Shown: positions 144 to 16,990 of the stretch, in pieces
Numbering within the stretch: the first letter of the stretch is position 1
Layout: each line of letters starts with the position of its first letter
NCBI RefSeq assembly: GCF_003732545.1
Contig: NZ_AYKF01000087.1
Span: forward strand, 1 to 33,487
Direction: 5' to 3'
Length of the DNA stretch: 33,487 bases
DNA from: Salinisphaera orenii subsp. halophila YIM 95161
GTDB lineage: Bacteria > Pseudomonadota > Gammaproteobacteria > Nevskiales > Salinisphaeraceae
Notes under the pieces: generated by a model
Database searches by the model: none
What the model saw: only the letters and a program-made list of their open reading frames with translations
Told to the model about the DNA's origin: nothing
Made by a program: the position numbers and the translations under genes

Positions 144-220
144 TGGTCGGGGCAACAGGATTCGAACCTGTGACCTTCTGCTCCCAAAGCAGACGCGCTA
201 CCAGGCTGCGCTATGCCCCG
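144..220 (-). tRNA. tRNA-Pro (TGG), CCA encoded
   Basis: The minus strand reads CGGGGCATAGCGCAGCCTGG at the 5' end and closes with GCCCCGACCA, so the terminal CCA (144-146) is genomically encoded. The anticodon stem TCTGC/GCAGA holds loop TTTGGGA, giving anticodon TGG. The T-arm ACAGG-TTCGAAT-CCTGT is intact. It is 77 nt long. A second copy of its promoter and 5' half lies 187 bp upstream. Confidence 0.95.
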
Positions 221-265
221 CCGATCGTCGCAGACTCTAGCGCGGTTGCACGCCCGTGGCCATCC
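183..265. repeat. Direct repeat copy 1 (tRNA-Pro 5' half plus promoter)
   Basis: This 83-bp segment recurs at 370-452 with an offset of 187 bp and five mismatches (221/408, 226/413, 228/415, 251/438, 256/443). All 38 bases inside the tRNA are identical. The left boundary lies in the anticodon loop and the right boundary just beyond the -35 element. Confidence 0.9.
234..262 (-). promoter_or_regulatory. Promoter of tRNA-Pro
   Basis: On the minus strand TGGCCA (257-262) and TAGAGT (234-239) are separated by exactly 17 bp, a sigma70-like arrangement matching 4/6 in each hexamer. The predicted start near position 227 lies a few bases before the tRNA 5' end at 220. The same two hexamers with the same spacing recur in the duplicated copy at 421-449. 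Confidence 0.55.
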
Positions 266-369
266 CGCGTCTGCTCTGCGAGCCGTCTGTTTCTAGGCTC
301 GGCTAGGCCTCGCCAACAAACCCGGCCTCGCGACATCCGTCGCTCGGCGTTCGCCGCCGTGCGGCTCAC

Positions 370-407
370 CCCAAAGCAGACGCGCTACCAGGCTGCGCTA
401 TGCCCCG
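370..407 (-). pseudogene. Truncated tRNA-Pro 5' half
   Basis: The 38 bases are identical to the 5' half of the intact tRNA-Pro, from its first base to the anticodon loop, and then stop matching. No 3' half, T-arm or CCA follows. It has its own copy of the promoter, so a truncated or read-through transcript is possible. It cannot make a normal tRNA. Confidence 0.8.
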
Positions 408-452
408 TCGATTGCCGCAGACTCTAGCGCGGTTGCATGCCCATGGCCATCC
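370..452. repeat. Direct repeat copy 2 (tRNA-Pro 5' half plus promoter)
   Basis: Partner of the repeat at 183-265, keeping both promoter hexamers, TGGCCA (444-449) and TAGAGT (421-426), 17 bp apart. Between the copies (266-369) is 104 bp without a gene. That spacer contains cgcgtctgct (266-275), an inverted copy of ten tRNA-Pro bases (188-197). Confidence 0.9.
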
Positions 453-531
453 TTTCTCCAATCAGAGCGCCATCCGTTACCGCGCCGAGCGGTATACCGG
501 CACATCGCAACGCCGGCCATCCACGGCGCAC

Positions 532-1932
532 TCAGCCACGCCGCCAGCGGGTGCCGTCCGCGCCGTCCTCCAGCAGGATGCCGTTGGCCTGGAGCTCGTC
601 GCGGATGCGATCGGCCGTGTCGAAATCCCGCGCCGCGCGGGCGGCGCGCCGCTGGCGGAGCATGGCTTCGATGGTTTCCGCATCGTAGGTATGGTCGCCG
701 GAACGCGCCGCGCCGCCCTGCAGATAGCGCGAGGCATCCTGCTGCAGCAGACCGATCCAGCCGCCGAGTTCGCGCAGCCCCGCGGCGATATCGGCAGCCA
801 CAGCTGGCGCCTCTTCCCGCTGCCGATTGCATTCGCGCGCCATCTCGAACAGCACGGCGATCGCCGCGGGCGTGTTCAGATCGTCCGCCATGGCCTCGGC
901 ATAGCGCGAGCGATAGCGCTGCACCGCGTCGGATCGCGGGTCGCCGTCGCCTGCGGTATCGCGCAGCGCTGTATAGAGCCGGGCGAGCGCGCTGGCCGCC
1001 GCGCTCATGGCATCCGCGTTGTAGGCCAGCGGACTGCGGTAGTGCGTCGAGAGCACGAAGTAGCGCACCGTCTCCGCGTCGAAGGTGTCCAGAACGTCGC
1101 GAATGGTCAAGAAATTGCCGAGCGATTTCGACATCTTCTCGTCGTCGACAGTCACGAAGCCGTTGTGCATCCACAGCGTCGCGAAACGCTTGCCGGTGGC
1201 GGCCTCGCTCTGCGCGATCTCGTTCTCGTGGTGGGGGAACTGCAGGTCCAGCCCGCCGCCGTGGATATCGAAGCTCTCGCCCAGGCAATGCGTGGACATC
1301 GCGGAGCATTCGATATGCCAGCCCGGCCGCCCCGGGCCCCACGGCGAGTCCCAGCTCGGCTCGTCGGCCTTGGCGGCCTTCCAGAGCACGAAATCGAGCG
1401 GATCCGTCTTGGCCTCGTTGACGGCGATGCGCGCGCCCGCCCGCAGATCCTCGGTTCGCCGTTTCGACAGCGCGCCGTAGTCGCCGAAGGTGCTCACGTC
1501 GTAATAGACGTCACCGTTGTCGCCGACATAGGCATGGCCGTTGTCGACCAGACGCTCGATCATGGCCAGGATCTGTTCGACGTGTGCGGTCGCCCGCGGT
1601 TCGTGGTCCGGCGCGATCAGGCCGAGCGCGGCCTCGTCCTCGCTCATCGCGGCGGCAAAGCGCTCGGCGATGGCCTCCGGCGTGGCGCCGGTCTCCGCGG
1701 CACGGTTGATGATCTTGTCGTCGATGTCGGTGACGTTTCGAACGAAGGTCACCCGCCAGCCGGTCGCGCGCAGATAGCGCACGAACATGTCGAACACGAT
1801 CATCACCCGGGCGTGCCCGAGATGACAGTAGTCGTAGACCGTGACCCCGCAGACATACAGGCGCACGTGGCCGGGTTCGAGCGTGACCAGCGCCTGGCGC
1901 GCGCCGGTGAGACTGTCGTGCAGTTGCAGCAT
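532..1932 (-). CDS. cysS: Cysteine--tRNA ligase
   Basis: This class I cytoplasmic synthetase activates cysteine and charges tRNA-Cys. The 466-residue protein has the first catalytic motif HLGH (37-40) and KMSKS (266-270). The zinc/cysteine-binding residues are Cys28, Cys209, His234 and Glu238, the same numbering as in the E. coli enzyme. Start chosen at the ATG giving [10 protein letters not shown], which matches the family N-terminus; a TTG eight codons upstream is in frame but unneeded. The C-terminus ends in the usual TRWRR-type tail, so the gene is complete. It is followed on the same strand by the tRNA-Pro region and is separated by about 580 bp from thiL upstream, so it is probably its own unit. 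A -10-like TAGAAT lies at 1965-1970. Confidence 0.97.
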
Positions 1933-13987: not shown

Positions 13988-14290
13988 CTAGCGCATATCG
14001 TCCGACGCCGAGGCCGACTGTTCGACCTCGAACGCGACCGTCGCCCCGCGCACCGGCAGGCCGTCACCCACGACGAGGTCCGTTTCGTCAGCACCGTCGG
14101 TAGTATCGAGCGACTGCAGCACGAATCGCAGCTGGCCCATGCCCATGACGTCGTCGTCCATGTCGTCATTCATGTCGCCGTTATCTCCCGGCTGTCCGAG
14201 ATCGACGCCGTCGCCATCACTGTCGCTGCACGCGGTGAGCGTGAGCGCGATCACGGCCACGACCAGCAGGAGCTGGGTACGACGACGCAT
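13988..14290 (-). CDS. Possible internally initiated lipoprotein (alternative to the fusion)
   Basis: ATG 14290 lies in the same frame as the beta-helix gene and would start a 100-residue lipoprotein: MRRRTQLLLV, a hydrophobic stretch, lipobox LTAC with Cys21, an acidic Asp/Met-rich linker (DGDGVDLGQPGDNGDMNDD) and a small domain with GQLRFVLQSLDTTDG and GATVAFEVEQ. That is a textbook lipoprotein layout and hard to explain as the tail of another exported protein. No strong ribosome-binding site precedes it (GGTCGGCGGC), so re-initiation or a former separate gene are both possible. No family recognised. Confidence 0.35.
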   Translation of the reverse strand: MRRRTQLLLVVAVIALTLTACSDSDGDGVDLGQPGDNGDMNDDMDDDVMGMGQLRFVLQSLDTTDGADETDLVVGDGLPVRGATVAFEVEQSASASDDMR

Positions 14291-16990
14291 GCCGCCGACC
14301 GAGAGCAGACCGACCAGGCCCAGCAGCGCCCCACCGGCATACAGCACACCGGCATTCGTGCCCGAGCCGCCGAGGTCCATCAGGCCAATCATCGCCTCGG
14401 AGTCCGCATCGTCGTCGCCGTCGTCCGCCACCAGCAGATAGGTCACGCTGTCGTTGGCGGGAATCGACACGCCGGCGCCGTCGGCGAAGGTCACGCTGAA
14501 CGTGGTGCCGTTGTCGGCCACCGAACCGCTGCCGACCGCCATGTCACCGCCGGCGTCGAAGCGACCGTTGTCGTTGCCGTCGACATAGACCGTGAGGTCG
14601 AGGTCGGCCGGATCCACGTCCTCGGGCAGCATGTCGTCGCGCTCGAGATAGCCGGAAAAGCCACCGACGTTGACGCTGTCGTCACTGTCGTTGCTCAGCG
14701 TCACGCCCAGCACGGCGACCGAGTCGGCCTCGTCGTCCGCCTCGATCACGACGTCGTCCAGATCGACGGCGGTCGCGGTGAGGACCGGGTCGTCGGTCAG
14801 CTCGAAGGCGCCGGCATCGCAGTCGCCGGCATCCGAGTCGCCGGCGTCGAAGCCGCGATCGGCACCGCGCTGATCGACGTCCATGTCGTCGCAGTCGGCG
14901 TTGCTGTCGAGCGCGGCACTGCCCGTCGCCAGCGGCTGCGTCGGCGTGGTGCCACCGAACAGGCGATAGGCGCCGTCCAGCGCCACGTCGCCGGTGACGT
15001 TGCCGTCATCCGCCTCGGCCGCGACTCCGGAACCCAGATCGGTATCATTCCCCGAGATCAGGCTGTTTCGGATCGCGATCGACCCGCCGGCCTCTTCCGC
15101 GGCGTCGACGCCGGTGCCCGCGTTGTCGGTGACCGTGACATAGTCCAGCGTGATGCTGCCGCCGGCGCCGTCGAGATAGACGCCCGCACCAGTGTCCGCA
15201 CTGTTGTTCGACACCGTGACGTTGTCCAGATCGAGCGTACCGGCGCCCGAGTTCCAGAGTCCGCCGCCTTCAACAGCGCTGTTGTAGCCCACGCTGGAGC
15301 GCTCGATGGTCACGGACCCGGCGCCGCCGATGTGCAGCCCGCCGCCGTTGCCCGGATTCGGACTCGGGTCGATGGCGTTGCCCAGCGCCGAGGACACGCC
15401 GCCGAGGGTGACCCGCAGCATCGTGACCGTACCGTCGGCCACTTCGATGCCGGCGCCGGCGCGGTTCGCACGGTTGCCCTCGATGCGGCTGTCGGTGATC
15501 TCGGCCGTTGCCCCCGGGCTCACGAGCAGAGCGCCCCCGGAACCGGCATCGCCGGTGGCGCGATTCGTCGCGATCCGGCTGTTGCGGATGGTCACCATGC
15601 CGCTGCCTTCGCCTTCATTGGCTTCGGCTTCGGCGAAGATGCCGCCACCGCCCTGGTCGGCGCCGTCCCCGGTGGCTTCGTTGTTCACGATCGACACGCC
15701 GTCGAAGTGCATGTCGCCCTGATTGTTCCAGAACGCACCGCCTTCAACGGCCGTGTTGCGGGCGAAGATGCCGCCGTTGACGTCCACATCGCCATCGCCG
15801 GTGACGTGCACCACGCCGCCATTGCCGGGATTCATGCCGGCGTCGTTGCCGGTGGCGGTCACGTTGTCCAGCATGGTGTCGGTCCCCGCAAGGACCTCGA
15901 TCGCCCCGCCGGCGCGGCGCGCGGCGTTCATGCGGAAGCTGGAGTCGTGAACGCGCAGCGTCGTGCCGGTCGACGCCAGGATGGCGCCACCGGAGCTGGC
16001 GCTGTCCGCGCCGTCCATCTGATTGCTGTCGTCGGCGCCCGCGCGATTCTCCACGAAGCGTGAGTCATCAATGATCAGCGTACCGCCGTTGCTCTCGGCG
16101 TAGATGGCGCCGCCACCCTGGTCCGCCGCGGGTCCGGTCGCGGTATTGCCGCTGAATGCGACGCCGTCGACGTGCATGGTGCCGCCGTTGTTCCACAGCG
16201 CACCGCCCTCGACCGCGATATTGTCGCTGAACGCACCGCCGTCGATCCGGATGTCGCCGCCACCGGTCACGTGGAGCGCACCGCCGTTACCCGGGTTCAT
16301 GCCGGCGTCGTTGCCGGAGAATTCAACGCCGTTGAGCGTGACACGCACGTTGTCGAGCGAATCGTCGTCGTCATCGTCGTCGATCGACACGCCCGAGGCT
16401 TCCTCGATCGCGCCGCCGGCACGGTCGGCCGTGTTGTCGCGCATGGCACCGCCGTTGACCGTGAGCACGCCGCCGTCGTCGTTCAGAATCGCGCCGCCCG
16501 AACGGTCGTCGGCTCCGGCGTCGCCGCCGGCCGTCATGCCGTTGACCAGCACCAGGTGATTGAGCGTGAGCTGGCCCTGGTTGGTGAAGATACGGCTCTG
16601 CCCGTTCGCATCGATGGTCACACCATCCGCGTCCTCATCCGAGTCACCGCCATCGCCGTCGGCCGCGCCGATGGTGAGCGTAGAGCCACCCTCGATCGTC
16701 GGCAGGGCTTCGCCGGCCAGCATGATCGTGCCGCCGGCCACGCCGTCGGCGAAGACGATGGTGTCGTTGTTGTCGTCGCCGGCGGCACAGCCACCGACGG
16801 TCGCGTTGTCGTTGGCCGCCATGATGGCGCTGCGCAGCGTGCAGCCGTCGCCGCCACTCATGTCGCCGCCGCTGTCGACCATGATCGTCGCGGCCATGGC
16901 GCCCGGCGCCGCCGCGACCAGTACCGATCCGGCGATCGCAGCCCGCACCTGACGGTGCAGGCGGCCGACGCCGTTGCGATTGATAGACAT
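13988..16990 (-). CDS. Exported right-handed beta-helix protein fused in frame to a lipoprotein-like C-terminus
   Basis: The 1000-residue product starts with a Sec signal peptide (about 1-33, AMA cleavage site) and a CSLREA-like motif CTLRSAIMAAND. Residues about 85-650 form a parallel beta-helix of Gly/Asn/Asp-rich coils, including three ~156-residue super-repeats sharing NPGNGG and AVEGG. DVDQRGADRGFD near 704-715 resembles the end of 'choice-of-anchor' beta-helix proteins. Residues 733-857 look like a beta-sandwich with a calcium-site-like DGNDNGRFD. Then comes GGSG, a transmembrane stretch (879-900) and Met-Arg-Arg-Arg, like a GlyGly-CTERM sorting signal. Instead of stopping, the frame continues through a second hydrophobic segment with lipobox LTAC (918-921) and an acidic 80-residue tail. 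AGGGGA precedes the ATG. Likely surface-exposed; ligand unknown. Confidence 0.85.
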   Translation of the reverse strand: MSINRNGVGRLHRQVRAAIAGSVLVAAAPGAMAATIMVDSGGDMSGGDGCTLRSAIMAANDNATVGGCAAGDDNNDTIVFADGVAGGTIMLAGEALPTIEGGSTLTIGAADGDGGDSDEDADGVTIDANGQSRIFTNQGQLTLNHLVLVNGMTAGGDAGADDRSGGAILNDDGGVLTVNGGAMRDNTADRAGGAIEEASGVSIDDDDDDDSLDNVRVTLNGVEFSGNDAGMNPGNGGALHVTGGGDIRIDGGAFSDNIAVEGGALWNNGGTMHVDGVAFSGNTATGPAADQGGGAIYAESNGGTLIIDDSRFVENRAGADDSNQMDGADSASSGGAILASTGTTLRVHDSSFRMNAARRAGGAIEVLAGTDTMLDNVTATGNDAGMNPGNGGVVHVTGDGDVDVNGGIFARNTAVEGGAFWNNQGDMHFDGVSIVNNEATGDGADQGGGGIFAEAEANEGEGSGMVTIRNSRIATNRATGDAGSGGALLVSPGATAEITDSRIEGNRANRAGAGIEVADGTVTMLRVTLGGVSSALGNAIDPSPNPGNGGGLHIGGAGSVTIERSSVGYNSAVEGGGLWNSGAGTLDLDNVTVSNNSADTGAGVYLDGAGGSITLDYVTVTDNAGTGVDAAEEAGGSIAIRNSLISGNDTDLGSGVAAEADDGNVTGDVALDGAYRLFGGTTPTQPLATGSAALDSNADCDDMDVDQRGADRGFDAGDSDAGDCDAGAFELTDDPVLTATAVDLDDVVIEADDEADSVAVLGVTLSNDSDDSVNVGGFSGYLERDDMLPEDVDPADLDLTVYVDGNDNGRFDAGGDMAVGSGSVADNGTTFSVTFADGAGVSIPANDSVTYLLVADDGDDDADSEAMIGLMDLGGSGTNAGVLYAGGALLGLVGLLSVGGMRRRTQLLLVVAVIALTLTACSDSDGDGVDLGQPGDNGDMNDDMDDDVMGMGQLRFVLQSLDTTDGADETDLVVGDGLPVRGATVAFEVEQSASASDDMR
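15170..16501 (-). repeat. Three ~156-residue internal repeats of the beta-helix
   Basis: Protein-level repeats begin near residues 164, 333 and 484, each opening with SGGA(I/L)L. The marker NPGNGG occurs at 232, 388 and 545, and AVEGG at 259, 414 and 572, so the period is 155-158 residues (about 468 bp). Each unit holds several shorter beta-helix coils. The third is the most diverged and ends near residue 607. Confidence 0.8.

Follow-up and report, generated by a model that had tools for sequence, protein, structure and literature searches.

A candidate structured RNA element between two copies of a host segment at tRNA-Pro of Salinisphaera and at other genes

Among described systems, the closest to the locus reported here is the RtT RNA (RF00391) of E. 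coli tyrT, where the repeats are 178 bp in length. Its layout comprises the complement of a tRNA 3′ end, hairpins carrying tandem GA, and a duplicated tRNA 3′ end. Rickettsia palindromic elements, which span about 100 to 150 bp and reside inside both protein and RNA genes, are another comparison, and are set apart by description alone from the element reported here, whose accompanying duplication preserves an intact host gene. One account of the tyrT RNA describes covariation in support of the helix that frames the tandem GA (PMC8250186). The TwoAYGGAY RNA (RF01731), as outlined in two reports, carries two GGA hairpins and tandem GA and occurs in gammaproteobacteria and Clostridia (PMC2864571, PMC4333381), and the second of these puts it forward as a CsrA-binding RNA (PMC4333381).

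The window analysed here is a stretch of 33,487 nucleotides that constitutes a whole contig (NZ_AYKF01000087.1) of Salinisphaera orenii subsp. halophila YIM 95161 (genome G000). On its minus strand, an ORF at 1956 to 532, which from its sequence we take to be cysS-like, is followed by a copy of half a tRNA, by the intact tRNA-Pro(TGG) at 220 to 144, and by a tRNA that is cut at the contig end. Between the half copy and the intact gene lies a sequence of 104 bp that we call E. The features of this region are given below, with matches to two models of E (R1, and R2 for the E core). Elsewhere in the window, the minus strand at 13988-16990 carries a repeat-rich ORF of 1000 aa that resembles a secreted surface protein.

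144 to 220, minus strand: intact tRNA-Pro(TGG), the host gene (ARAGORN and Rfam tRNA).
183 to 265, minus strand: right copy of the duplication, 45 bp upstream with a −10-like TAGAGT plus tRNA nucleotides 1-38, running on into the intact tRNA (78/83 identity to 370-452).
266 to 369, minus strand: element E, 104 bp, three hairpins and a tail (R1 match 267-385, 129.2 bits; R2 match 281-348, 62.3 bits).
267 to 278, minus strand: 3′ strand of the closing helix, the E tail, CAGAGCAGACGC (helix 1 of the covariation analysis).
289 to 321, minus strand: hairpin H3 of E, the core, with GA/GA and an apical loop lacking GGA in the window copy (predicted fold and comparison).
325 to 348, minus strand: hairpin H2 of E, with GGA in its loop and GA/GA flanks (predicted fold and comparison).
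349 to 369, minus strand: hairpin H1 of E, GTGAGCC...GGCGAAC (predicted fold and relatives).
370 to 452, minus strand: left copy of the duplication, the upstream 45 bp (408-452) plus the tRNA-Pro 5′ half (370-407), with GGG at the E junction (78/83 identity to 183-265).
372 to 383, minus strand: 5′ strand of the 12-bp closing helix, within the half tRNA, GCGTCTGCTTTG (helix 1 of the covariation analysis).

The initial annotation had noticed the direct repeat, read it as a promoter duplicated together with a tRNA half, and overlooked that the 104 bp between the copies (369 to 266) are structured and conserved and that the arrangement forms an array in some relatives. The repeat itself is real. 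Its copies differ at five of 83 bp, are identical over all 38 nucleotides of the tRNA part, and end in the anticodon loop of tRNA-Pro(TGG) after ...CTTTGGG; because the same arrangement recurs in relatives, the half-tRNA repeat is far beyond chance. The promoter reading was not confirmed as stated. Both copies share the −10-like TAGAGT, which starts 19 bases before the tRNA and scores 7/9, a score attained by 4.3% of random 60-base windows. However, the proposed sigma-70 site with 17-bp spacing lacks a convincing −35, and a consensus promoter scan of positions 1-700 returned no full sigma-70 site. A −10-like box scoring at least 7/9 is present in seven of the ten half copies compared, with both copies in G003 scoring 5 and that in G044 scoring 6. 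The tRNA half is kept at 36-38 of 38 positions among these copies, even where the upstream region has diverged; in G013, only 16 of the 45 upstream bp are identical, yet 37 of 38 positions of the half are.

Structurally, the E tail pairs over 12 bp with the anticodon arm of the half tRNA. The half contributes GCGUCUGCUUUG and the tail CAGAGCAGACGC, and the resulting helix encloses the three hairpins. This fold is conserved after the half tRNA in six Salinisphaera genomes (the window's own, G013, G006, G004, G005 and G003), and the closing helix shows compensatory changes in relatives, for example a half reading GCACCUGC that is matched by a tail reading GCAGGUGC. The same tRNA-Pro unit occurs outside the order in G123, where the tail CAAAGCAG turns a G-U pair into A-U as judged by eye. 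In an alignment of eight units, 12 of 39 pairs have changed on both sides, and the covariation score exceeds that of all 500 shuffles. One of the five covariation measures, further pair types, did not rise above shuffles in this alignment (368 of 500), and H1, being misaligned in it, is paired in just 57% of cells. Over the 33 copies in the alignment behind R2, 16 of 19 pairs have changed on both sides. The 33 sequences of this training set (A3) were chosen by a script that required paired H3 stems, and thus H3 pairing in it is partly selected, while H2 pairing was never a selection criterion. An Rfam scan of the window yielded only tRNAs at gathering scores and no family at E, plus one chance-level radC match with an E-value of 3.

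Related Salinisphaera genomes carry from one to three or more units spaced 187-192 bp apart. There are three halves in G006 (successive spacings of 188, 187 and 187 bp, the last one reaching the intact gene), at least two in G003, one unit with a half and an adjoining weaker match (56.6 bits) in G005, and one unit at tRNA-Pro in the window's own genome. Within the order, R1 finds E in 15 of 85 genomes, with 24 copies in G044. R2 finds the core in 22 of the 85, with 47 copies in G044 and a single copy in the window's own genome, and in 12 of 369 genomes of a class sample, three of them Salinisphaera; many R2 matches are its own training sequences. Searches with R1, R2 and the RtT model that spanned more than 40 genomes used stricter filters, with the loss of weak matches. 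A core pattern that required no loop sequence and little stem pairing has 38 matches in 10 of the 85 genomes (zero for the reversed control) and occurs in two of the 369. Inspected by eye, 35 of these 38 matches have each of the three variable stem positions paired, and 35 contain GGA in the H3 loop.

A narrower pattern matched 17 stretches in a genome contig collection, including Nevskia, Stagnimonas, Algiphilus, Salinisphaera and Rhodanobacteraceae, and five of the 17 come from Lachnospiraceae or Faecalicatena. It had no match in a viral contig collection, and a plasmid collection held no DNA similar to window positions 183-460; a phage or plasmid origin was rejected on these results. The gut Lachnospiraceae and Faecalicatena MAG loci (L100, L102, L103, L106 and L110) contain this H3 core within a different dispersed repeat, present twice in tandem in L106. 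Six loci of G044 (L118, L119, L120, L122, L126 and L130) hold E in inverted pairs about 100 bp apart, which are seemingly parts of a larger composite repeat.

The hosts of E include the tRNAs for Pro, Gly, Thr, Arg, Ser and Ala, the RNase P RNA (rnpB), and, by Pfam, mnmG, murG, a pfkB-family gene and a yhhQ-like gene. Further hosts, named from sequence, are presumably mutL, sthA-like and DAHP-synthase-like genes. Regardless of gene direction, a partial copy of the host lies to the left of E and the intact copy to its right; at two copies beside tRNA-Ser the order is reversed, and a partial 3′ end lies to the right of E. Direct repeats scoring at least 16 flank 53 of 92 E copies, compared with 2 of 389 spots chosen at random within the same loci, and part of those found lie between tandem units. 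This test covered 93 of the 95 R2 matches (two copies at contig ends in G079 were omitted), one of which was too short. The remaining 39 copies, mostly in G044, have no flanking repeat of that score.

The junction is fairly uniform. Among 35 hand-picked sites, one per host site, 34 passed a score of 15. At 27 of these 34, GG forms the exact end of the partial copy; at 30 it lies within the last three bases, and at seven an exact GG end is lacking; the GG dinucleotide frequency is 0.084 for comparison. After the junction, E often starts with GTGAGCC or GCGAGCC (GYGAGYC). In tRNA hosts the junction falls in the D-loop, or in or just behind the anticodon loop. The earlier observation that the repeat ends in the anticodon loop is right for tRNA-Pro, but D-loop sites are used as well (L107, L109, L145 and L128), and what the sites have in common is the GG before the junction.

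Clean single insertions are few (L145 and L066), and the left edge of L145 resembles an old E end. A possible guide role, in which the 3′ strand of the H3 outer stem would equal a 5-mer that the left edge of the duplication had beforehand, fits these two loci; most other sites are in tandem or too diverged to read. At the mnmG site, the sequence spanning the junction is complementary to the tail CGACGGTGCCGGC, which might make the tail an antisense to its host gene. By eye, no such complementarity of tail and host was seen at tRNA-Gly, tRNA-Ala, tRNA-Arg or murG. In five loci (L051, L159, L161, L165 and L186), an open frame of 50-69 aa runs through the gene fragment and E; it stops close to or at the start codon of the intact gene, and sometimes overlaps it. 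Copies in G073 and G041 (L158, L183, L184 and L185) make up an E subfamily located at the starts and stops of genes, with TGAGCGCGCCGACACGG as a shared sequence on the left. In G018, locus L139 (about 1250-1640) has a tRNA-Gln preceded by repeated 5′ halves that lack the E core; an RtT match lies downstream of it.

The loops of E differ between lineages. In a count that covered 93 of the 95 R2 matches, copies outside Salinisphaera have GGA in the H2 loop in 77 of 84 cases, in the H3 loop in 81, and in both in 75, although R2 was built largely from GGA-loop copies and this favours finding them. Inside Salinisphaera, GGA occurs in the H2 loop of four of nine copies and in the H3 loop of none. 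The window copy has GGA in H2 alone, and thus lacks the two GGA loops of a CsrA decoy. Its genome gives no match to the CsrA family PF02599. CsrA is intact (78.5-91.5 bits) in 15 of the 16 E-bearing genomes outside Salinisphaera, and the exception, G065, is 79% complete. By contrast, CsrA is missing from three of the six E-bearing Salinisphaera genomes (G000, G006 and G013) and is a partial match in the other three (G003, G004 and G005); across 14 genomes of the genus, it is absent in eight and partial in six. This distribution, which involves a single clade, points to a CsrA-type decoy in most lineages that may have been lost in Salinisphaera.

Outside Salinisphaera, the paired GGA hairpin loops of E resemble those of CsrB/RsmZ-type sRNAs, whereas E is short, dispersed and tied to gene fragments, and the window's own genome is without CsrA. 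With TwoAYGGAY, E shares two GGA hairpins and tandem GA, but the passages that describe that RNA in the reports cited above mention no flanking gene pieces. RF01731 gave no covariance match at the window and none on E itself where tested. It did match outside the E core in L063, L083 and L092, and near some G044 copies.

In its anatomy, E comes closest to RtT. Beside a tRNA gene, both repeat in tandem with a unit length of about 176-190 bp, and in both a tRNA piece and its complement make the closing helix around hairpins with tandem GA, a combination that units of the window type also show. The layouts are mirror images, in that RtT lies downstream with a copy of the tRNA 3′ end whereas E lies upstream with a 5′ piece, as does the window unit. 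E also has a different core sequence, and occurs at protein genes and rnpB too. An RF00391 covariance search of window positions 200-560, with E-values up to 10, gave no match. When R1 was run on 12 loci bearing RtT or E, its three matches with E-values below 0.01 were all E copies of L093 and L094, and none fell at RtT. The likeness is one of design, and this test brought out no sequence homology. In L093 and L094, E precedes and an RtT match (46.3 and 38.1 bits, respectively) follows the same tRNA-Ser gene. RtT has matches in 19 of the 85 genomes of the order, 11 of them with matches above the cut-off. In the window's own genome, a copy that follows tRNA-Tyr scores 72.1 bits against a cut-off of 45, and a second, weaker one of 31.8 bits is found at a distance of 176 bp; in all, L132 (G000:C105:556-861) and G000:C86:15-331 contain this one RtT match above the cut-off and three weaker ones, in tandem pairs. 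Titles and abstract openings of open-licence literature contained no description of E or of 5′-sided tRNA-half arrays, which is weak evidence given that scope.

Several explanations must be weighed against that of a spreading element. Common tandem arrays, and the presence of the tRNA-Pro unit across several genera and in G123, from another order, in a pattern that resembles inheritance, suit an old, immobile RNA gene family beside tRNA and other genes, with the gene pieces as breakpoints of tandem duplication kept by chance. We judge this unlikely, since the junction GG recurs at 27 of 34 sites in unrelated hosts, 47 dispersed copies occur in G044, and presence is patchy, with the close relative G012 empty despite 97% flank identity. 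The earlier suggestion of tandem duplication agrees with the duplicated flanks and tandem units, but every unit contains E at a uniform junction. It is quite improbable that the working product is instead a tRNA-Pro fragment acting on translation or tRNA metabolism, which E merely protects or ends. The retention of the 38-nt half despite upstream divergence favours this idea, and a transcript joining half tRNA and E is plausible given the −10-like box, so that the proposed source of tRNA-half RNA survives to this extent. However, it is E rather than the half that is conserved across loci: elsewhere the left piece comes from the D-arm of another tRNA or from the beginning of mnmG, murG or mutL, a weak E match in G002 has no visible half, and the outer tRNA-Pro unit of G044 keeps just about 20 nt of it.

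REP/BIME-type repeats moved by a Y1 (RAYT) transposase are likewise small, palindromic and dispersed, and some G044 copies form inverted pairs. Long flanking duplications are, to our knowledge, not typical of REPs, and E comes with duplicated gene ends. The window's own genome has three Y1_Tnp matches, but six of the 22 E-bearing genomes have none, including G044, the richest with 47 copies. Such an origin is highly improbable, even though one report assigns rtT-like elements of Enterobacteria to BIMEs (PMC2965389). An excised integrase element, as raised in the initial annotation, would account for a breakpoint in the anticodon loop. After clean excision, its att scar should consist of one repeat copy with no conserved sequence between, which is not the situation here. 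Comparison of relatives, proposed as a search for an island between the repeats, found the conserved E there, in some cases in tandem, and the interval has a conserved fold in six Salinisphaera genomes. The same layout at rnpB and at the protein genes mnmG, murG and mutL also speaks against it, and we give a scar of this kind only the slightest chance. An assembly artefact, conceivable in a draft of 153 contigs, deserves practically no weight and was rejected because the same unit is present in Salinisphaera shabanensis E1L3A, in G004 (an assembly of nine contigs) and in G044 (on a contig of 3.8 Mb).

The locus probably represents a unit of a short structured RNA element that is spreading and is situated between two copies of a host segment. 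What the genomes display directly is the layout, its recurrence at many hosts, a covarying fold, a junction that is fairly uniform and a variable tandem copy number. That junction, together with the dispersal of E among hosts that are unrelated, favours a defined insertion process. In this layout, a putative promoter and a host gene end piece ending in GG are followed by E (about 100-130 bp), and then by the promoter and the intact host gene. E would arrive by an insertion that duplicates about 55-90 bp of the left flank, such that the host gene survives and E gains its own copy of a housekeeping promoter. Unequal recombination of the direct repeats might then add or remove units. For tRNA-Pro, transcription would yield a chimera of half tRNA and E in which the E tail closes the anticodon arm. 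Where CsrA exists, the most likely function would be that of a decoy RNA with paired GGA hairpins. Because CsrA is missing or partial in Salinisphaera, and the fold is kept there while most GGA loops are gone, the window copy is presumably a derived one.

The fuller account is more tentative. E may be a mobile RNA element with a GG target rule, promoter capture by duplication and a CsrA-type decoy product; E and RtT may be 5′- and 3′-sided forms of one tandem-GA class; and the Salinisphaera copies may have outlived an intact CsrA. We regard this possibility as less likely than not. Either way, what seemed a local curiosity becomes a recurrent and testable layout, in which a small structured RNA, accompanied by a copied host promoter, would settle in tRNA genes, rnpB and housekeeping genes. 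It may also offer an origin for the puzzling tRNA-fragment repeats of E. coli tyrT, and it would provide a natural comparison, that of GGA loops with the presence of CsrA, for the class of predicted CsrA-binding RNAs.
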